A DNA stretch of 30,066 nt, taken from IMG/VR virus record IMGVR_UViG_3300020205_000528, positions 1-30,066 of that record. One strand, given 5' to 3'. Origin of the DNA: a virus. The translations under genes were made by a program, and so were the position numbers. The notes beneath the pieces are model-generated. The model saw only the letters and a list, made by a program, of their open reading frames with translations. It was not told the origin of the DNA and searched no databases. Shown piece after piece: positions 16,294 to 29,292 of the stretch (position 1 is the stretch's first letter; every line of letters starts with the position of its first letter).

Positions 16294-17961
16294 ATGGCAA
16301 AACTAGCGTTAGCTCCATTGGCTGGCATCAACGAAGATGCGGATACCAAGTATCAAAGTGCTTTAGAGCGCATACAAGCCGCTTTGACGGCTCGTGAGAA
16401 CCCATCCATTGATCCAGTGATGTTGGCGATGGCGCAAGGGTTCTTGACGCCCGGCAAAACTGGCTCCTTCGCTGAAGGTTTAGGCGGAGCCGCTGGTAAT
16501 GTTATTCCTGTCATGGCTCAAAAGCAAAAAGACGCCATGGACAACGCTCAAATGCGTCTACAGCTTGCCCAAGCCGAACGTGAACAAGCTCGCAAGACCC
16601 AAGGACTACAGTTCTTGAATGATCGTGATCAACCTACAGCATCGCCCATAGGTGGAGCGCCACAAGGCGAAGCGCCAACAACAGGTACACCCCCCAAAGG
16701 CGACAACTCTGGCCCCGCTGTACAAACAAGCAAAGGCGTACTTACACCTCGTCAAATTGCCAGAATTATGTATACCAATCAAGAGCTTGGTAAAGCTCTC
16801 GAAGCTGAGTACAAGATGAACTTGGAGGCTATCTCTGTACAGCCAACTGGCGCATACGACAAGACAACACGTCAATACACACCTTTTGGTGGCAAGACTA
16901 CTGTTCAACGCTTTGCCCCTGCCGACCCAGCAACTGGTCGCAAGGCAATGAATATTGACATGTCTGAACAAGACGCAATTGAATACGATAACGCAAGAGC
17001 TTCTGGTAACTACAAAGCATTGAGTCAATTGATTGATCGATATACCACGTTCCCTACGCCTCCAGTTGTAGCGCCAATTACGGGAGCCACTCCTTCTGAA
17101 GCCAAGTCTACTGAAGTTACACCTGTTGGTCGACCTGTTGCTATGCCATTAGGTGCTTTGAATCCCACAGAATTGAAACAACAGCAAGAATTAGATTTGG
17201 CTACCCAAAAGGCTGAGATGGAAGCGTTATCTAAAGCTCGTGCAGATCGCACAACCGCCAAGATTAACGCTGGCAATGATGCTGGATCGAGACGACAAAC
17301 AGCGCAAGTGATACAAGATTTGTTCCAAGGTGAGGGAATGGATCAGGTGACGGGTGTACTAGAGCGACCCGGCTTCCTTAACGGTGTGTTGAAGCTTGCC
17401 GAAGATGGCATCAACCTTGGTCGAGGCTTCAGTATCAGCGTTCCTCAAGTGCGTGACATATTTACTGCCAACAAGATTAATTTGCCAAAAATTGCTGGTG
17501 AAACCAGACAACAATACGATCAACGTGTTGACACCGTAATTAGCAAGACTCAACAAGCCCTATCATTGTTTGCGCAAGTTACATTTGGTCTACGCTCGTT
17601 GGCGGCAGGTCAAGGGTCAATCTCAAACTTTGAACAAGTTATCTTTGATCGAATGGGGCCTACGGTTCGAGACACCTTCCAAACCATCATGGCTAAGTCC
17701 AAGCACATGGAAGAGCGAGCAAAGTTTGATGAAGCTGTCAAAAATGCTCTAGTTGACAGCAACATGTCTTTTGACAAATATTCCCGCACACCTGAATACA
17801 CGGACTTGGTTAAGAACTACGACAACACTATTCGTGGAATTTATACTAACGTAAAGTTTCCTGATCCTGTAAAGCCAACTTCGCCATCAACCAAGAAGTC
17901 GTCTGGTTCATCAAAAGTTAGCCCAGACGCCAAGGCAAGGTTGGACGCAGAGCTTAATTAA
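16294..17961 (+). CDS. Putative internal virion protein, 555 aa
   Basis: The N-terminal third is helical, with a coiled-coil stretch (QMRLQLAQAEREQARKTQGL). A Pro/Gly-rich linker follows (APQGEAPTTGTPPKGDNSG), then a mixed middle with a second coiled coil (LKQQQELDLATQKAEMEAL). The C-terminal half looks globular (VTGVLERPGFLNGVLKLAED, then FGLRSLAAGQGSISNFEQVI). It ends in a Ser/Lys-rich tail. The arrangement resembles phage internal or ejection proteins. It sits nine bases before the SLT-domain gene. I do not recognise a specific family. Confidence 0.6.
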   Translation: MAKLALAPLAGINEDADTKYQSALERIQAALTARENPSIDPVMLAMAQGFLTPGKTGSFAEGLGGAAGNVIPVMAQKQKDAMDNAQMRLQLAQAEREQARKTQGLQFLNDRDQPTASPIGGAPQGEAPTTGTPPKGDNSGPAVQTSKGVLTPRQIARIMYTNQELGKALEAEYKMNLEAISVQPTGAYDKTTRQYTPFGGKTTVQRFAPADPATGRKAMNIDMSEQDAIEYDNARASGNYKALSQLIDRYTTFPTPPVVAPITGATPSEAKSTEVTPVGRPVAMPLGALNPTELKQQQELDLATQKAEMEALSKARADRTTAKINAGNDAGSRRQTAQVIQDLFQGEGMDQVTGVLERPGFLNGVLKLAEDGINLGRGFSISVPQVRDIFTANKINLPKIAGETRQQYDQRVDTVISKTQQALSLFAQVTFGLRSLAAGQGSISNFEQVIFDRMGPTVRDTFQTIMAKSKHMEERAKFDEAVKNALVDSNMSFDKYSRTPEYTDLVKNYDNTIRGIYTNVKFPDPVKPTSPSTKKSSGSSKVSPDAKARLDAELN

Positions 17962-19546: not shown

Positions 19547-19769
19547 CAATAGGAAGTTTTCCAAGGTTGTCAACTGCGTTGTCAAACATGGTGAGATTGT
19601 CTCTCGAATTGGGTTCATTTGTAAACTCAATGTTAAAGGTGTTGTCTCTAAGGATGTAATACCTACCTGCATCTTGTGACCACTGTTGGATCATTTGAAG
19701 GAGGATGGGGAGCATTTCTTCCCTCCAATCCTCTCCAAGTAGGGTGGTAACAAACTCCTCAGGAGTCAA
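19536..19769 (-). CDS. Small hypothetical acidic protein
   Basis: The start is TTG at 19769 in a TTGA overlap with the previous stop, giving 77 residues; an ATG at 19715 has a much better GGAGGG site and would give 59 residues. The sequence (EEFVTTLLGEDWREE, LPILLQMIQQWSQDAGRYYI, FNIEFTNEPNSRDNLTMF) is a mix of helix and strand and has no motif I know. It runs directly into the next frame, where a +1 shift near CTTGGAAAAC would fuse the two products. Confidence 0.55.
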   Translation of the reverse strand: MTPEEFVTTLLGEDWREEMLPILLQMIQQWSQDAGRYYILRDNTFNIEFTNEPNSRDNLTMFDNAVDNLGKLPIGED

Positions 19770-23297: not shown

Positions 23298-23310
23298 CGC
23301 CGTATCGGCG
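23298..23310 (-). promoter_or_regulatory. 5-prime leader stem-loop of the minus operon
   Basis: CGCCG-TAT-CGGCG is a perfect 13-base inverted repeat. The predicted minus-strand transcription start is near 23311, so the stem would stand at the very 5-prime end of the message, a place where stems are known to protect transcripts from decay. Confidence 0.55.
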
Positions 23311-23317
23311 TGAACGA

Positions 23318-23346
23318 ATTAGAACACAGTTTTAACACCGTGTTTA
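23318..23346 (-). promoter_or_regulatory. Predicted promoter of the minus early operon
   Basis: On the minus strand, TAAACA (-35, at 23346-23341) and TCTAAT (-10, 5 of 6 matches, at 23323-23318) are separated by exactly 17 bases. The operator-like palindrome at 23330-23348 covers the -35 and most of the spacer, so a bound regulator would block this promoter. Confidence 0.6.
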
Positions 23347-23348
23347 AA
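23330..23348. promoter_or_regulatory. Operator-like palindrome, site 1
   Basis: TTTTAACA-CCG-TGTTTAAA: two 8-base arms with one mismatch pair around a 3-base centre. The same 8-3-8 layout recurs at 25637, 27384 and 28080. It is a likely target of the Cro/YdaS-like regulator encoded beside it. Confidence 0.7.
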
Positions 23349-23371
23349 TTGTTGAGTGAAACTGAGGGACT

Positions 23372-23398
23372 TTATCAAACAACGAGTTAAGGTATACT
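23372..23398 (+). promoter_or_regulatory. Predicted promoter of the regulator gene, probably giving a leaderless mRNA
   Basis: TATACT at 23393-23398 is a strong -10. Transcription would begin about seven bases on, at 23405-23406, where the ATG lies. The best -35 is weak (TTATCA at 23372-23377 with a 15-base spacer), so activation may be needed. An AAGG at 23389-23392 is 13 bases from ATG and would not be transcribed. Confidence 0.6.
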
Positions 23399-23405
23399 GC
23401 ATCGC

Positions 23406-23642
23406 ATGACATTAATCGAATACTTTTCTACCGAGCCTCGTGGGGCAAAAGCGGAGATGGCTGAGTACCTAGACATTACGCCCACCTACATAAGCTTGCT
23501 GATTCACGGCAAACGTCGTGCGTCACCACACATGGCGATCAACATTGAGAAGGCGACCCAAGGATTGGTCACCAGACAAGACTTGCGCCCAGATTTGTAC
23601 ATCGTATTGGACAGGATTGCGCAGGAGTCCGAGGCGGTGTAA
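23406..23642 (+). CDS. Cro/YdaS-like HTH transcriptional regulator
   Basis: The 78-residue protein has an HTH: AEMAEYLDITPTYISLLIHG (residues about 17-35), followed by KRRASPHMAINIEKATQGLV and TRQDLRPD, the pattern of YdaS/Cro-type phage regulators that bind short palindromes as dimers. It is expressed divergently from the minus operon and precedes the replication genes, the position of lambda cro. No repressor partner or integrase is visible in the window. The operator-like palindromes described here are its likely sites; its message is probably leaderless. Confidence 0.85.
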   Translation: MTLIEYFSTEPRGAKAEMAEYLDITPTYISLLIHGKRRASPHMAINIEKATQGLVTRQDLRPDLYIVLDRIAQESEAV

Positions 23643-23747
23643 GATAGTTTGAAACACGGCTAGATGAGGATTGATCCCCCCATCGAAAAGCGTCTCAACC
23701 CCCGCCTGCCGAGGTTTCTTTCAGGGGTGAATTTTTGGGGTTCGATA

Positions 23748-24461
23748 ATGCATTATTACCAATTGAATATTGGCGACTACAAGTCGCACACAAACCATCT
23801 GGACTTGCTAGAGGACTTGGCTTATCGTCGACTCCTCGACCTGTACTATCTTCACGAACGCCCGTTGAACGTCAGTGTGGCGGCAGTTGCACGTCAGATT
23901 GGCATGCGTGAGCACGAGGACAAGGTGTATTTAATCCTCGAGGAGTTTTTTCACAACTCTGAGGAAGGTTGGGTAAACCCTCGTGCGGATCGTGAAATTA
24001 AGCATTTCCACAGCAAAATTGAGCAGGCTTCAAGGGCTGGTAAAGCGTCCGCTCAACGCAGGAGTAACGGGCGTTCAACGGACGTTCAACCAAACAATAA
24101 ACAAGAACCAATAAACAAGAAACAAGAAACAAAGAATACAGCGACTAGCGTCGCTACGCCTGACGGCGTGTCATCAGAAGTTTGGGATCAGTTTGTTAAG
24201 CAGAGGAAAGTCAAGAAGGCGCAGATTACAGATCTGGTGATGGTTGGTATCCAACGAGAGGCAGACAAGGCTGGCTACACCTTGGAGAGGGCTTTGACTG
24301 AGGTGGTGGTGCGCAACTGGGTTTCTTTCAAAGCCGATTGGGTTGCGGAAAAAGCCGACAACAGCATGACCAAAACTGGCTTGTCAAACAAAACCGTGAT
24401 GTCTGGGCTAACTCGTGGACTTTTAGGGAGTGGACAAAATGTCAAATTACTCGGAAGCTGA
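23748..24461 (+). CDS. DUF1376-domain replication protein (initiator-like)
   Basis: ATG at 23748 gives MHYYQLNIGDYKSHTNHLD, the usual DUF1376 start, and has GGGG eight bases upstream; an earlier ATG at 23664 adds 28 unlikely residues. The 237-residue protein has the DUF1376 domain first (LLEDLAYRRLLDLYYLHERP, then VAAVARQIGM), a polar linker rich in Asn, Lys and Gln, and a C-terminal helical domain (EVWDQFVKQRKVKKAQITDL). Proteins of this kind occupy the place of lambda O. The next gene resembles a helicase loader, which fits. Repeats in the linker DNA may form the origin. Confidence 0.75.
   Translation: MHYYQLNIGDYKSHTNHLDLLEDLAYRRLLDLYYLHERPLNVSVAAVARQIGMREHEDKVYLILEEFFHNSEEGWVNPRADREIKHFHSKIEQASRAGKASAQRRSNGRSTDVQPNNKQEPINKKQETKNTATSVATPDGVSSEVWDQFVKQRKVKKAQITDLVMVGIQREADKAGYTLERALTEVVVRNWVSFKADWVAEKADNSMTKTGLSNKTVMSGLTRGLLGSGQNVKLLGS
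24050..24136 (+). other. Candidate phage replication origin inside the DUF1376 gene
   Basis: CGTTCAAC occurs at 24072-24079 and 24083-24090, with a one-mismatch copy CGCTCAAC at 24050-24057; the spacings are 11 and 22 bases, that is one and two helical turns. An A-rich, low-GC tract follows (24091-24136) with a 13-base direct repeat, CAATAAACAAGAA, at 24095-24107 and 24109-24121. Iterons next to an AT-rich stretch within the initiator gene are the lambda O arrangement. Confidence 0.45.
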
Positions 24462-24822
24462 TTTTGTGGATATTGATTCTGGTCTTGATTACGTTTTTGT
24501 AATGTTGGGCGGAATTTATGGTCAGGCATTCAACCGTAACTGGGATGGCATGGACTTGCCTGTTGTTCGTCAAATTTGGAAAGAACAGATTGGGAGTTTT
24601 TTAACATACAAGCCAAGCTTGGACTATGCCTTTGGACGCTTGAGTGGGGACTTTCCGCCGAGTGCTATCAAGTTCCGTGAGTTCTGCAATGCAGGCCCTG
24701 CTATCCCACGAAATGAGCCACAGATCGAATACAAGCCAACCCCTGTTGACCCAGAGGTGGTGCGCAAAGCCAAAGAGAATCTTGCCAAACTAAGGGGTAA
24801 GCCATGGACAAACCAGACGTAG
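24439..24822 (+). CDS. Lambda P-like replication protein candidate (helicase loader)
   Basis: ATG at 24439 gives 127 residues; it overlaps the end of the DUF1376 gene by 23 bases and has GGGAG upstream. The block LDYVFVMLGGIYGQAFNRNW, DLPVVRQIWKEQIGSFL, YAFGRLSGDFPPSAIKFREF then CNAG resembles the C-terminal part of P-like proteins, which recruit the host helicase. The usual N-terminus is not present, so this is a short version or a different helper. The position after the initiator-like gene is the main support. Confidence 0.5.
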   Translation: MSNYSEADFVDIDSGLDYVFVMLGGIYGQAFNRNWDGMDLPVVRQIWKEQIGSFLTYKPSLDYAFGRLSGDFPPSAIKFREFCNAGPAIPRNEPQIEYKPTPVDPEVVRKAKENLAKLRGKPWTNQT

Positions 24823-25004
24823 ACCTTTTGAAGTGCCAAGTGGCTGGATGTAACGCCAATTGGACAGTCAGTGCTGGTTGGAAGAAGTGCTCTAAGCATG
24901 CATGGGGCGAAGAAGAAAACTCAGTGCCAAAAATTAAAACGAGTTTCTTTGACAGACCGCCAGTTCGCCCATTCACCGAGGTGGATGACTATGAAATTTT
25001 CTGA
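24804..25004 (+). CDS. Small zinc-finger-like protein
   Basis: The 66-residue protein overlaps the previous gene by 19 bases. KCQVAGCNANWTVSAGWKKC with following SKHAWG holds C-x4-C-x12-C-x2-H, a probable zinc-binding set. The C-terminal half is acidic and Pro/Phe-rich (FFDRPPVRPFTEVDDYE). Role in nucleic acid or protein binding is inferred only. Confidence 0.6.
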   Translation: MDKPDVDLLKCQVAGCNANWTVSAGWKKCSKHAWGEEENSVPKIKTSFFDRPPVRPFTEVDDYEIF

Positions 25005-25287
25005 GATGACTCGTGAAGAAGCGAACCAAATCCTCGACCAAATCCGTGATGGCGTTTCCCACTCAGAGACTTGCGCCCTTGATTGCCTCTATCTCACAGG
25101 AGACCATAACCCACATGCGCCAATGCGAGGCGAGGGAATGGATCATGAGGTATCGCAAGAAGATTGGCGAAGTAGGGTCAGGGCAAGGGAAGGCTTGGTG
25201 GGCGCAGGTCAAGGAAGACATAGCAAAGCGTCGTGGAAAAGCGGCGCTGGATTCTTTGGTCAACCAAATGGAGACGGAGCGACGTGA
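24991..25287 (+). CDS. Small hypothetical protein, overlapping frame with the following gene
   Basis: ATG at 24991 follows GAGGTGG and overlaps the previous stop region. The first 55 residues (MTREEANQILDQIRDGVS, LDCLYLTGDHNPHAP, EGMDHEVSQED) read as a helical phage protein of a type known in replication regions. The later part (ARE..GAGQGRHSKASWKSG) lies over another frame and looks less protein-like. The stop is in GTGA overlap with rusA, which supports the frame to its end. The length is 98 residues. Confidence 0.5.
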   Translation: MKFSEMTREEANQILDQIRDGVSHSETCALDCLYLTGDHNPHAPMRGEGMDHEVSQEDWRSRVRAREGLVGAGQGRHSKASWKSGAGFFGQPNGDGAT

Positions 25288-25300
25288 GGGTCGAGTTTGA
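25115..25300 (+). CDS. Small hypothetical protein, overlapping frame
   Basis: ATG at 25115 has AGGAG 12 bases upstream and gives 61 residues, MRQCEAREWIMRYRKKIGE followed by AWWAQVKEDIAKRRGKAALD and a charged end. CEARxx(I/V)...R...Y..V...RG..A...L is a pattern common in small phage proteins. It lies almost wholly inside the 24991-25287 frame, and the codon content suggests that this frame is the real one over the shared stretch. Confidence 0.55.
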   Translation: MRQCEAREWIMRYRKKIGEVGSGQGKAWWAQVKEDIAKRRGKAALDSLVNQMETERREGRV

Positions 25301-25634
25301 CTTCCCCCCTGCCATCCTGTTCCCCAACAGAAGCAAGGGCAAGCATTGGGCTGTGATGCATAAACCCAAGACCGACTATCGAGAAGCCTGCTATTGGCTC
25401 ACCAAACAGCAGGCAAGAGGGTGGAAGCACGAGGGAGGTGACCTACACCTCACCCTTACCTTCATGATGCCTGATAAGCGCCACAGAGACGCTGACAACT
25501 GCCTAGCCGCCGCCAAGGCTGGATTGGACGGCATGGCTGACGCTTTAGGGGTGAATGATCGCTACTTTCAACCCATCACCATTTACCGCATAGCTGGCGC
25601 AAGCAAAGGGCTACTTATTGCCGAATTTGACTAA
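25284..25634 (+). CDS. rusA: RusA-like Holliday junction resolvase
   Basis: GTG at 25284 is in GTGA overlap with the previous stop and gives 116 residues starting MRVEFDFPPAILFPNRSKGK. The RusA pattern HRDADNCLAAAKAGLDG (Asp 69, 71 and 82) and GVNDRYF (Asp 92) holds the acidic metal-binding residues. RusA cuts four-way DNA junctions, needed to resolve replication and recombination intermediates. An in-frame start at 25233 would overlap two genes and is less likely. It is followed by an operator-bearing promoter. Confidence 0.87.
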   Translation: MRVEFDFPPAILFPNRSKGKHWAVMHKPKTDYREACYWLTKQQARGWKHEGGDLHLTLTFMMPDKRHRDADNCLAAAKAGLDGMADALGVNDRYFQPITIYRIAGASKGLLIAEFD

Positions 25635-25656
25635 TCCGTTAACAGCGTGTTAAAGT
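25627..25656 (+). promoter_or_regulatory. Predicted promoter with operator-like site 2
   Basis: TTGACT (25627-25632) is a good -35 and TTAAAG/TAAAGT (25650-25656) a weak -10, with 17 or 18 bases between. The palindrome CGTTAACA-GCG-TGTTAAAG (25637-25655) fills the spacer and -10, so binding would block transcription. It precedes the gene at 25680. Confidence 0.65.
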
Positions 25657-25679
25657 AAATCATCTTTAAAGGAGAGACC

Positions 25680-26081
25680 ATGAAATCGACATACACCAGA
25701 GGTTCTTTGATTCACCGCTCGATGGAGCACTTGGAGAGACAGCCAAGAACGCCTGAGAGCTTGCGCAACATGTTGCTCAACATTTCTATTGCCAGATTCA
25801 ATGAGTACGTGACAGCGCCATTGATTGCTGATGGATTTGCCAAGCACGAGGAAGATGTTTTGTATCTGACCACAAAGGGTCGAGAAAAATATTATGAGAT
25901 GGGTATGGTGAAGTCAAAGCTTCCTTCGTCTCACAAAACAGACATCATGGGAACCACGTACGACGGTGCTGAGTTGAAGTTAAGTGCTGTTCGATTGGGC
26001 GCTGATGACCACATGAAGTTTCCAAGCAGGAATGGAAATGAATTGAGATACCGTGATGGAACAGTGGAGGAGTTGGCATGA
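25680..26081 (+). CDS. Winged-helix-like hypothetical protein
   Basis: The 133-residue protein begins MKSTYTRGSLIHRSMEHLER after AAAGGAGAG. The segment RNMLLNISIARFNEYVTAPL with LIADGFAKHEEDVLYLTTKG and REKYYEMG has the pattern of a winged helix (helices followed by a beta hairpin and a Gly-Arg turn). The C-terminal half is less structured. It is the first gene after the operator-bearing promoter, which suggests a regulatory or early DNA-binding function. No specific family is claimed. Confidence 0.65.
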   Translation: MKSTYTRGSLIHRSMEHLERQPRTPESLRNMLLNISIARFNEYVTAPLIADGFAKHEEDVLYLTTKGREKYYEMGMVKSKLPSSHKTDIMGTTYDGAELKLSAVRLGADDHMKFPSRNGNELRYRDGTVEELA

Positions 26082-26332
26082 TGAACCCCGAAGACGAAGC
26101 ATTCAATGACATTGAAAGAAAAGCAAAACAACGCATGGAGGCGGTCAAGGCGGCAATGCTTAGAGAAGAAGACGATGACATCCAAGACTACAAGAAGGCG
26201 TGGGTCGAATTGACCGACAAGGAAATAAGAGCGTTAGCAAAACCTTCCGACGATATAGAAATTTCCATGACAGGAAGAATGTGGATATTTGTTGGCGACT
26301 TGATGACCAAACTCAAGGAGAAGAACACATGA
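26078..26332 (+). CDS. Small acidic hypothetical protein, 84 aa
   Basis: ATG at 26078 overlaps the previous stop by four bases. The first half is helical and charged (EDEAFNDIERKAKQRMEAVK), the second has AWVELTDKEIRALAKPSDD, a phrase seen in many small phage proteins near replication genes, and GRMWIFVGDLMTKLKEKN. No catalytic motif. Stop overlaps the next ATG. Confidence 0.65.
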   Translation: MMNPEDEAFNDIERKAKQRMEAVKAAMLREEDDDIQDYKKAWVELTDKEIRALAKPSDDIEISMTGRMWIFVGDLMTKLKEKNT

Positions 26333-26550
26333 CATTTAGAGAATCAACCATCAAGTACGTCAAAGACGTCTTGAGAGCAAGAACAATCCATGAGGTCATT
26401 GCCAAGGAGTTGCAAGAAGCACACCTCAGGAAGCTCGAGGCAGAAACCGCCGCCGAGTATGCCAATGCCGCAATTCAGTACAACGAGAAACGCATTACTC
26501 GTTTGCAAAAGCAGTTGATGGAGCACACACGAGAGGGTGACTATGCTTGA
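26329..26550 (+). CDS. Small coiled-coil protein, 73 aa
   Basis: ATG at 26329 is in ATGA overlap with the previous gene; a longer in-frame start at 26200 would overlap it by 133 bases. The product is helical throughout (YVKDVLRARTIHEVIAKELQ, EAHLRKLEAETAAEYANAAI, EKRITRLQKQLMEHT) and probably forms a coiled coil. Function unknown. Confidence 0.65.
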   Translation: MTFRESTIKYVKDVLRARTIHEVIAKELQEAHLRKLEAETAAEYANAAIQYNEKRITRLQKQLMEHTREGDYA

Positions 26551-26731
26551 TAAGCTGATCCTAAGCGTCGTGCTTGGAACAGTTGGGTTCAATGGGTTGT
26601 TCCCTGAACCGCCCCCACCAATGACGTTGCAACAAAAAGCAAAAGACAAATCAATAAGCCAAGTGTGTGAAAAAAAGAAAAAGTCCAAACAGTTAAAGAA
26701 ACTATGCGAAAGGTGGGGGAAACATGAATGA
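26543..26731 (+). CDS. Small protein with N-terminal hydrophobic segment and Lys-rich tail
   Basis: ATG at 26543 follows GAGAGG and gives 62 residues; a GTG at 26537 would add two. The N-terminus LDKLILSVVLGTVGFNGLF is hydrophobic (signal or anchor) and is followed by PEPPPP and a basic stretch (CEKKKKSKQLKKLCERW) with two Cys. It may be secreted or membrane-bound. Function unknown. Confidence 0.55.
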   Translation: MLDKLILSVVLGTVGFNGLFPEPPPPMTLQQKAKDKSISQVCEKKKKSKQLKKLCERWGKHE

Positions 26732-27068
26732 CAAGCTAATTGATCCAAACCAAGCCATTGACTACATCATTGCCAAGTCAGGCGAATACGCTCAAGCAAG
26801 GGCTAATCGAATCTACATGGAAGAGCTTCGCAAGACCCTAAAGGCAGAGCTTTGCAAGACAGCCCTACACCATGGGTTTGAGGCAGTGAACGCACAGGAG
26901 CGAGAGGCGTACAGCGACCCTAACTATCGAGCACACCTGTTAGCGATTAAACAAGCCGTAGAGGAGGAGGAAAAGATTCGATGGATGCTGATAGCCGCCC
27001 AAGCTCGAGTCGACGTGTGGAGGTCACAGGAGGCGTCCAACAGGGCTGTTGACAAGCTCACCCTATGA
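26724..27068 (+). CDS. Helical hypothetical phage protein, 114 aa
   Basis: The protein overlaps the previous gene by eight bases and has GGTGGGG upstream. It is helical (IDYIIAKSGEYAQARANRIY, MEELRKTLKAELCKTALHHG) and ends in IAAQARVDVWRSQEASNRAVD, a phrase common in small phage proteins of replication blocks. No motif for catalysis. The stop overlaps the HNH-like gene start. Confidence 0.65.
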   Translation: MNDKLIDPNQAIDYIIAKSGEYAQARANRIYMEELRKTLKAELCKTALHHGFEAVNAQEREAYSDPNYRAHLLAIKQAVEEEEKIRWMLIAAQARVDVWRSQEASNRAVDKLTL

Positions 27069-27343
27069 ACGAGAAGGCGTGGATGAACGCCGTGGCAGAG
27101 CTAGGCTGTGGCATGTGTAGGCGTATGGGGTACGGTGAGACCCCCGCCCAACTACATCATCCAAGGGAAGGTGTTGGAATGGCGCAACGCCAAAGCAATT
27201 GGCTGGTGATCCCCTTATGCCCAGCACACCATACAGGTTCTAAAGGTTGGCATGGGACGAGGGACGACTTTAAGCGCCACAGCGTGGATGAGCTAGACAT
27301 CCTTGCTGACACCATCGAGTTGATTACAAAAAACCACACTTAG
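27065..27343 (+). CDS. HNH-type nuclease, Ref-like
   Basis: The protein has 92 residues, ATGA coupled to the previous gene. ELGCGMCRRMG (C15, C18), QLHHPREGVGMAQR (H31, H32), PLCPAHHTGSKGWHG (C52, H55, H56, H63) match the zinc and metal residues of the Ref/HNH group of phage nucleases; P1 Ref acts with RecA on displaced single strands. The E. coli-like RecA requirement cannot be tested here. The stop codon TAG sits inside a small TAGGG/CCCTA stem that precedes promoter 3. Confidence 0.75.
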   Translation: MNEKAWMNAVAELGCGMCRRMGYGETPAQLHHPREGVGMAQRQSNWLVIPLCPAHHTGSKGWHGTRDDFKRHSVDELDILADTIELITKNHT

Positions 27344-27355
27344 GGTAAATCCCTA
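27341..27355 (+). other. Small inverted repeat before promoter 3
   Basis: TAGGG and CCCTA enclose a 5-base loop and include the stop codon of the HNH-like gene. There is no T tract. A larger relative stands in the same place before promoter 4. Confidence 0.4.
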
Positions 27356-27375
27356 CAAAATAGTTGAATAAACTA

Positions 27376-27423
27376 TTGCAAACCTTTAACAGTGTGTTAA
27401 AGTTACCTCACTGCAATAAGCAG
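27376..27423 (+). promoter_or_regulatory. Predicted promoter with operator-like site 3 and leader stem-loop
   Basis: TTGCAA (27376-27381) and TAAAGT (27398-27403) are 16 bases apart. The spacer and -10 hold the best palindrome of the set, CTTTAACA-GTG-TGTTAAAG (27384-27402), with perfect 8-base arms. Downstream, CTGC-AATAA-GCAG (27411-27423) is a leader stem followed by GGAACG, also found after promoter 4. Confidence 0.7.
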
Positions 27424-27443
27424 GAACGAAAGAAAGAAACCAA

Positions 27444-27773
27444 ATGAAAAACGATCTGCCCATCACCCAAGTCGACACTCTCGGTAACCTCTTGGCTCAA
27501 ATTGCTGAGTTGACCAAACAAGCTGACGCCATCAAAGACGTCATCAAAGAAAACGGTCAAACCGTTGAAGGTAACCTCTTCAAAGCCACATACATTGAAG
27601 CAAACCGTTCAACCATTGACTGGCTGGCATTGGTCTCAACCAAACTTGGTGTTGAGGCTGACTGGAAAAAAGTTGCAATCAAAATTGGTTACGAAGAAAA
27701 AGACGTGCCTAAAGCAATTGTTGACAACACCAAAATTACTGCTGTGTTCAGCGTCAAAGTCACTTCACGTTAA
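27444..27773 (+). CDS. Hypothetical phage protein, 109 aa, under promoter 3
   Basis: The first gene after an operator-bearing promoter. It begins MKNDLPITQVDTLGNLLAQI, with a coiled helical start (AELTKQADAIKDVIKENG) followed by a mixed part (GNLFKATYIEANRSTIDWLA, WKKVAIKIGYEEKDV) and a beta-like end. Proteins of this kind are frequent in myo- and podophages and remain uncharacterised. The DNA composition is regular for the region. Function unknown. Confidence 0.65.
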   Translation: MKNDLPITQVDTLGNLLAQIAELTKQADAIKDVIKENGQTVEGNLFKATYIEANRSTIDWLALVSTKLGVEADWKKVAIKIGYEEKDVPKAIVDNTKITAVFSVKVTSR

Positions 27774-27786
27774 TCAAGGAGCCATC

Positions 27787-28047
27787 ATGAAATACAAAGG
27801 TCACGGCAAAAAAGAATTTGTGGTTGTCATCAAAGATGATGATGGCTCTAAGCGGGTGTTCTCGCACCCTGTCACAGAAAAAAGTGCTGTGTTCATGATC
27901 CTTGGGTCATCACTGCCCTTGGACTACGTTGCAATTCGCCACATTGAAGAGCTTGGCATCAAGCCCAACAAACCATGGCAACACGACGCACCTATCAACC
28001 CCCAGTTTGCTGGCGCACAACCTGCTCGTGCAGGCGAAGACTATTAA
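27787..28047 (+). CDS. Small hypothetical protein, 86 aa
   Basis: ATG at 27787 follows AAGGAG; the in-frame extension to 27565 is a shadow of the previous gene. The sequence MKYKGHGKKEFVVVIKDDDG, then FSHPVTEKSAVFMILGSSLP, is a small beta-rich fold, and the end is Pro/Ala-rich (INPQFAGAQPARAGEDY). No motif recognised. Probably co-transcribed with the preceding gene. Confidence 0.65.
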   Translation: MKYKGHGKKEFVVVIKDDDGSKRVFSHPVTEKSAVFMILGSSLPLDYVAIRHIEELGIKPNKPWQHDAPINPQFAGAQPARAGEDY

Positions 28048-28054
28048 AAGGAAA

Positions 28055-28075
28055 GGGTAGGGAAAGTCCCTATCC
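28055..28075 (+). other. Stem-loop before promoter 4
   Basis: GGGTAGGGA (28055-28063) pairs with TCCCTATCC (28067-28075) apart from one G-T pair, with a 3-base loop. It lacks a proper T tract, so it is a weak terminator at best, and it overlaps the -35 of promoter 4. Confidence 0.5.
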
Positions 28076-28120
28076 AATCCTTTAACTCTGTGTTATACTA
28101 ACTTCACTGCAATCAAGCAG
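28071..28120 (+). promoter_or_regulatory. Predicted promoter with degenerate operator-like site 4 and leader stem-loop
   Basis: TATACT (28094-28099) is a strong -10 with a weak TATCCA (28071-28076) 17 bases upstream. CTTTAACT-CTG-TGTTATAC (28080-28098) is a degenerate form of the operator. The leader stem CTGC-AATCAA-GCAG (28107-28120) and following GGAACG repeat the leader after promoter 3. Confidence 0.65.
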
Positions 28121-28140: not shown

Positions 28141-28470
28141 ATGAAAACAGTAACTATGTATGGAACTGATCGTGTGGTGTACGAGGAGTCTGATCGTGAG
28201 ATGTTGGCACGATTAAAGAACATCTGTGAGTATGATTGGCACAACAATTGGGTCAAACAGGGTTCTAAGGACGAGGGAACCTGCTGTTTGGGCAAGGGCA
28301 TCAAGGTCTATTTCCTACCCAAGGGCAAGCGTTTGCCTCGTGAGGTGTACTTGGCACGTTGTGACTTCGTACAGGGCAACGTGGCGGCATTCAAGGCTTC
28401 TGAGCCTGTAATGGAGCGTTTGCAAAGCGAAGGCATTGCTTGTTGGTACGACGACGGAAGAATGGATTAA
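28141..28470 (+). CDS. Hypothetical phage protein, 109 aa, under promoter 4
   Basis: ATG at 28141 follows AAGGAAC. The sequence (KTVTMYGTDRVVYEESDREM, LARLKNICEYDWHNNWVKQG, GTCCLGKGIKVYFLPKGKRL) holds several Cys and aromatic residues, with no known motif. The C-terminus is acidic (GIACWYDDGRMD). Function unknown. Its expression is likely controlled by the operator at site 4. Confidence 0.65.
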   Translation: MKTVTMYGTDRVVYEESDREMLARLKNICEYDWHNNWVKQGSKDEGTCCLGKGIKVYFLPKGKRLPREVYLARCDFVQGNVAAFKASEPVMERLQSEGIACWYDDGRMD

Positions 28471-29249: not shown

Positions 29250-29275
29250 GATTCCATGTAAACTACAGGTTAAAG
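29236..29275 (+). promoter_or_regulatory. Possible promoter and weak operator-like site 5 before terS
   Basis: TTGTGA (29236-29241) and TAAACT (29259-29264) are 17 bases apart. TGTAAACT-ACA-GGTTAAAG (29257-29275) keeps one good half of the operator and a poor second half. Both elements are weak, and the AAAGGAG site lies 14 bases before the terS ATG. Confidence 0.35.
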
Positions 29276-29292
29276 GAGCCGTTGAAATTATT

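Follow-up and report, generated by a model that had tools for sequence, protein, structure and literature searches.

Cro is taught as one half of the lysis-lysogeny switch. YdaS of prophage CP-933P (E. coli O157:H7) is reported to act as a Cro protein and not as a toxin, and to bind operators covering both the promoter of its own gene and the one facing it (PMC8630535). It belongs to a bistable immunity region that also has a CI analogue (PaaR2), a CII analogue (YdaT) and 18-bp repeats (consensus GTTTAGTAA). Operators dispersed over a genome are known from cluster A mycobacteriophages of the L5 type, in which a single repressor reads many genome-wide sites at promoters and elsewhere; these stoperators are asymmetric 13-bp sites for a monomeric repressor with a role in lysogenic immunity, and many of them block elongation (PMC9283540). 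The immB region of phiKO2 and N15 has a lambda-like layout with five operators in two regions, one of them at the replication gene repA, and the CI-like protein CB reads all five sites, Cro only one (PMC4997575). Here we describe a family of palindromes around and downstream of the gene for a YdaS/Cro-type regulator in IMGVR_UViG_3300020205_000528 (positions 1-30,066 were analysed as a whole and are called the window), a fragment record covering about half of a phage genome. We propose, with a probability of about 0.82, that in this virulent-looking lineage a dimer of the regulator binds TTTAAC-N5 palindromes (half-sites separated by five bases) and would thereby damp its own and other early promoters without a lysogenic option.

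The 78-amino-acid protein encoded at 23406 is, judged by profile searches and a structure model, a YdaS/Cro-type regulator. It matched PF15943 at 2.7e-14 with 53.2 bits (curated cut-off 30) as well as phrog_35 (transcriptional repressor) and phage Cro-like repressors. Profile comparison with YdaS in the PDB gave 4.5e-08. The model, with a predicted local distance difference test score (pLDDT) of 92.2, has the compact helical helix-turn-helix fold of YdaS and Cro, and its closest structure is YdaS 8co2 (Z 11.5, root-mean-square deviation 2.0, 73 aligned residues), so that family and fold are shared with CP-933P YdaS (PDB 8co2, 8c7k), at 33% identity. Also its position is that of a Cro gene: it is the first gene of the rightward arm, located at divergent early promoters and with an operator in its own promoter. 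In contrast to CP-933P, no CI was found in the records searched, the half-site is TTTAAC and the sites reach several kb downstream.

The original prediction had listed 19-bp palindromes starting at 23330, 25637, 27384 and 28080, and all four were recovered exactly there (Table 1). A search for TTTAAC-N5-GTTAAA with at most one mismatch returned the same four sites and no other, compared to a mean of 0.13 and a maximum of 2 in 300 shuffles. All four fall between genes, in the non-coding 4.9% of the window, and the copy named as the best, 27384, indeed has perfect arms. The wider pattern CTTTAACA-N3-TGTTAAAG gave five matches at up to three mismatches against 0.24 expected, the fifth being located at 17376 within a structural gene. 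We discarded this site and another one at 19620 as operators because both lie in coding sequence; 19620 is retained in the relatives L005 and L006 as coding DNA. A weak fifth copy had been suggested at 29257, but its matrix score ranks only 9th in the window, which is background level, and what it overlaps is not a promoter but the terminase gene's Shine-Dalgarno sequence, so it was dropped as well. As a separate observation, an AAC-N4/5-GTTAAAGGAG element lies over the Shine-Dalgarno sequence of the terminase small subunit gene (window 29250-29292) and is conserved in L005-L007, L008 and L056. A site overlooked by the original prediction, ATCAAACAACGAGTTAAGG at 23374, is located in the regulator's own promoter directly upstream of the -10 box. 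Since this site belongs to the rightward promoter, we assigned 23330 to the divergent leftward promoter. The control circuit had been suggested to be phage-wide, which is better narrowed to the divergent pair of early promoters plus the rightward arm of early genes: no strong site was found in the structural arm.

Relatives of the regulator are encoded on at least 215 viral-contig stretches, and 80 loci were retained for comparison. They were grouped into clade A (the window clade), clade B (the N3 branch, with a gap of three bases), clade C (N5, like clade A) and the other clades D-G. The kin of the window phage are uncultured viruses, mostly environmental. The palindromes had been placed between or over predicted -35 and -10 elements. 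At 25627-25656 this was supported by a strict sigma-70 scan, which recovered this promoter as the only one among the sites and showed the -35 boxes to be weak; for 27384 and 28080 comparison with relatives supports an extended -10, and 23330 lies beside the leftward promoter. In the relatives, matching downstream sites overlap an extended -10 box, and in most cases a hairpin at the 5' end of the messenger RNA (mRNA) comes next. Among modules picked by their operator and carrying the hairpin, a T at position -7, which had not been selected for, was present in 39/39 N5 and 11/11 N3 modules. When modules were picked solely by the extended -10 box and hairpin, ignoring the left half (n=73), the left half-site was located at 5 bp in 38 cases and at 3 bp in 14, with about one case at each other distance. 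The invariant T together with a left half-site at fixed spacing suggests that the right half-site doubles as operator and -10 box.

That the right half-site matches TGTTANRRT and keeps the T at -7 would also fit a promoter element alone, in which an extended -10 and a box upstream of it serve a sigma factor of the host or the phage and no repressor is bound. We consider this very unlikely, as the left half mirrors the right one and in clade B is displaced by exactly 2 bp at almost every downstream promoter with the -10 box unmoved, the centre of the palindrome varies freely, and the palindromes of 23330 and 23374 lie beside or upstream of the -10 box, not on it. The weak -35 boxes might further point to a regulator that acts on these promoters as an activator and not as a repressor. 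This appears scarcely probable, because the downstream operators cover the -10 box, a position at which known Cro and CI systems block polymerase and at which, by analogy with lambda, the regulator would do so too.

In relatives whose regulator is 95% identical, 4-5 sites are retained at the same promoters, with constant arms and differing centre bases. Among 53 distinct upstream regions of the wider family we found AAC-Nk-GTT beside the regulator gene 22 times with k=5 and no more than 4 times with any other k, a predominance that links this motif in the regulator promoter to the protein family. Of the downstream sites with at most one mismatch, 9 in clade A and 30 in clade C have the N5 spacing and 14 in clade B the N3 spacing, without any crossover between N3 and N5; the half-site is the same in both branches. 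Nearly all downstream sites of one branch thus appear to have shifted jointly by two bases, from a 5-bp to a 3-bp gap. In the tree the window clade and clade B form one supported group and N5 also occurs outside that group, therefore the N3 spacing is probably derived from an N5 background. The N3 genomes L069, L072 and L076 have N3 at the leftward and own-promoter sites too; L073 and L075 use N5. A complete circular relative, MW202545.1 (57,457 bp), contains five operator modules in its early arm with 0 expected by chance. Because many promoters per genome shifted jointly, a single trans-acting reader is indicated.

The choice of the regulator at 23406 as ligand is supported by the comparison of sequences: the AAC-N5-GTT element at its own promoter is found family-wide and the downstream spacing tracks the regulator branch. 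Another protein, such as the 133-amino-acid product at 25680 or a host regulator, could in principle read the sites; the 25680 gene is located behind one operator and its product weakly matches HTH_45 (winged-helix), below the cut-off. The 25680 protein was rejected since it is missing from most clades, being present in 9/25 records, all of them of clades A and B, and clade C retains the operators. A host protein would leave the co-variation with the regulator clade unexplained, so that we regard any ligand other than the regulator as highly unlikely. Regulators of the N3 and N5 classes share about 70-80% identity with a nearly identical recognition helix (TY[IM]SLLI...RR mostly common). In the alignment of the regulators no single position fully splits N3 from all N5 proteins; residues 41, 42 and 46 distinguish them within the TY clade only.

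The original prediction saw no CI partner for the regulator, and profile searches agree with this. In 32 related records including the window, many of them longer than 50 kb and most of them fragments, tyrosine integrase (PF00589), serine recombinase (PF00239) and the S24 repressor domain were each found in 0/32, and HTH_3 matches were the regulator itself except in G013 and G014. The complete MW202545.1 contains neither a tyrosine integrase nor HTH_3. At the position of lambda cI beside the regulator there is a 75-amino-acid gene with no family match. Neither the competing CI-type repressor nor the integrase of a lambda-type CI/Cro switch was thus present in the records searched. Prophages of such a phage would be expected among 84,980 cellular species, but the search returned only a single close relative, located in a metagenome bin on a contig of 3.4 kb. 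With no lysogeny genes found and this scarcity in cellular genomes, the lineage looks virulent. The sites could instead be immunity operators for a CI-type repressor whose gene lies in the half of the genome outside the window or was recently lost, with the Cro-like protein only sharing them. The window record is a fragment, and in CP-933P the binding regions of YdaS and the CI-like PaaR2 overlap (PMC8630535). Against the negative searches above, in particular that of a complete genome, we judge such a repressor to be unlikely. Unlike in phiKO2 and N15, all sites appear to be read by the Cro-like protein, and no regulator besides it was found. L5-type stoperators are asymmetric, often located outside promoters and oriented with transcription, whereas the sites described here are palindromic, lie over or next to promoters and are found in records without lysogeny genes.

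Several points weigh against a regulon of this kind. In six members of clade B (L008, L010, L011, L014, L102 and L122) the leftward and own-promoter sites match neither spacing cleanly. The co-variation between N3/N5 spacing and regulator represents one or few evolutionary events, not many independent ones, so that the site counts are not independent evidence each. Clades D-G have no downstream sites matching these half-sites at up to one mismatch, so in these clades the dispersed sites may have different half-sites or not exist. The long records G013 and G014 carry a second HTH_3 protein. Finally, the records are mostly fragments, and the searches would overlook a CI analogue that has a different fold and resembles neither HTH_3 nor S24.

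In 50/92 modules, compared to about 3 expected, a stem of at least 4 bp begins at a constant position, near +3 of the mRNA and thus about 2 nt from its 5' end when counted from an inferred start site. The stem sequences vary (CTGC/GCAG, CGGTC/GACCG, CGCC/GGCG, CGACA/TGTCG and others) with the pairing preserved. In the window, the 25637 module lacks a hairpin. Stem-loops of the ompA type at the 5' terminus stabilise bacterial mRNA (Emory 1992 and Bouvet 1992, as cited in PMC3997798). The hairpins described here likewise are short and lie within a few nt of the inferred 5' end, and by this analogy they are probably mRNA stabilisers; they differ from the ompA type in recurring within a repeated operator-promoter cassette, and their effect on decay is inferred. 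A lambda boxB-like antitermination site was considered too, and is unlikely because the loop sequence is not conserved. Upstream of most operator modules, including those of relatives, we found inverted repeats such as TAGGG-N5-CCCTA, mostly without a T-run; the one at 27341-27355 may separate its module from the upstream gene.

From the computed sites, their promoter overlap, conservation and co-variation with the regulator we infer binding, dimerisation, repression, timing and hairpin role as follows. A dimer of the 78-amino-acid regulator would bind two TTTAAC half-sites spaced 5 bp apart and occupy the leftward promoter (23330), its own rightward promoter (23374) and at least three promoters of the early arm (25637, 27384, 28080). 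In the early-arm promoters the extended -10 box coincides with the right half-site, so that binding there would block RNA polymerase. The regulator would be made early, and its build-up would lower its own synthesis and early transcription by negative feedback, leading to a pulse of early expression with no lysogenic option. Most such promoters would give an mRNA that starts with the short hairpin, probably as a stabiliser.

Table 1. Predicted features of the regulator locus and the early arm, in window coordinates.
Feature	Position	Strand	Remarks
Hairpin at 5' end of leftward mRNA	23298..23310	-	CGCCG-ATA-CGGCG
Likely extended -10 of leftward promoter	23318..23326	-	TGTTCTAAT; inside overlapping AAC-N3-GTT repeat 23322-23336; compared with clade C leftward promoters
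Operator OL	23330..23348	.	TTTTAACACCGTGTTTAAA; adjoins leftward early promoter; retained in L005 and L006
Operator OR, own promoter of regulator	23374..23392	+	AAC-N5-GTT at -28; -10 TATACT 23393-23398; element family-wide upstream of gene
YdaS/Cro-type regulator P0001, 78 aa	23406..23642	+	PF15943, phrog_35, model fold
Dispersed operator	25637..25655	+	over TTGACT-18-TAAAGT promoter (extended -10 25648-25656); upstream of 133-aa gene 25680-26081
Inverted repeat	27341..27355	+	TAGGG-TAAAT-CCCTA; directly upstream of 27384 module
Dispersed operator, perfect arms	27384..27402	+	over extended -10 TGTTAAAGT 27395-27403; upstream of 109-aa gene 27444-27773
5'-mRNA hairpin	27411..27423	+	CTGC-AATAA-GCAG
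Inverted repeat	28056..28075	+	GGTAGGGA-AAG-TCCCTATCC; directly upstream of 28080 module
Dispersed operator	28080..28098	+	over extended -10 TGTTATACT 28091-28099; upstream of 109-aa gene 28141-28470
5'-mRNA hairpin	28107..28120	+	CTGC-AATCAA-GCAG
Rejected weak fifth copy	29257..29275	+	background matrix score; overlaps Shine-Dalgarno of terminase small subunit gene

Other structured elements were seen near the regulator gene of relatives. In the stretch that separates the early promoter from the regulator gene, L084, L104, L115, L122, L124, L128 and L131 have a structured, partly transfer RNA (tRNA)-like RNA with closing stems GTTGGNG...CNCCAAC, which neither ARAGORN nor Rfam calls a tRNA; genuine tRNA-Thr or tRNA-Met is found at this place in L008, L012, L013 and L014. 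An Rfam search of the window gave no matches. In related phages the Betaproteobacteria-1 RNA (RF02932) was detected at L091:6692-6809 and L104:11037-11154, a hint of betaproteobacterial hosts. The tail-gene region of the window encodes two neighbouring RCC1-like repeat proteins (417-1553 and 1557-2714).

Dispersed operators, as in L5 and N15/phiKO2, and YdaS/Cro proteins are already known. New are a Cro-type regulon that spans the family and has no detectable CI, the cassette of operator, -10 box and hairpin, and the concerted 2-bp change of spacing. A literature search for Cro-linked dispersed operators in virulent phages returned no such system, which, its coverage being incomplete, is weak evidence of novelty. 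We see even odds for a more general picture, in which an abundant uncultured lineage of virulent phages would run its early genes by a Cro-type repressor alone, via a repeated cassette of an operator fused to the extended -10 box and followed by a 5' hairpin. In one branch the gap of nearly all downstream operators would have narrowed together from 5 to 3 bp, with the half-sites the same and the recognition helix nearly so, meaning that dimer geometry and not base contacts was rewired together with the regulon. The TTTAAC-N5 and TTTAAC-N3 classes represent a natural experiment on a regulon-wide change of operator spacing, for which residues 41, 42 and 46 are the prime candidates to set the spacing preference. 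The cassette provides a sequence signature to locate early promoters in uncultured phages. Since a Cro-type protein and its operators persist in a lineage without sign of lysogeny genes, a purely lytic role of such proteins becomes testable.

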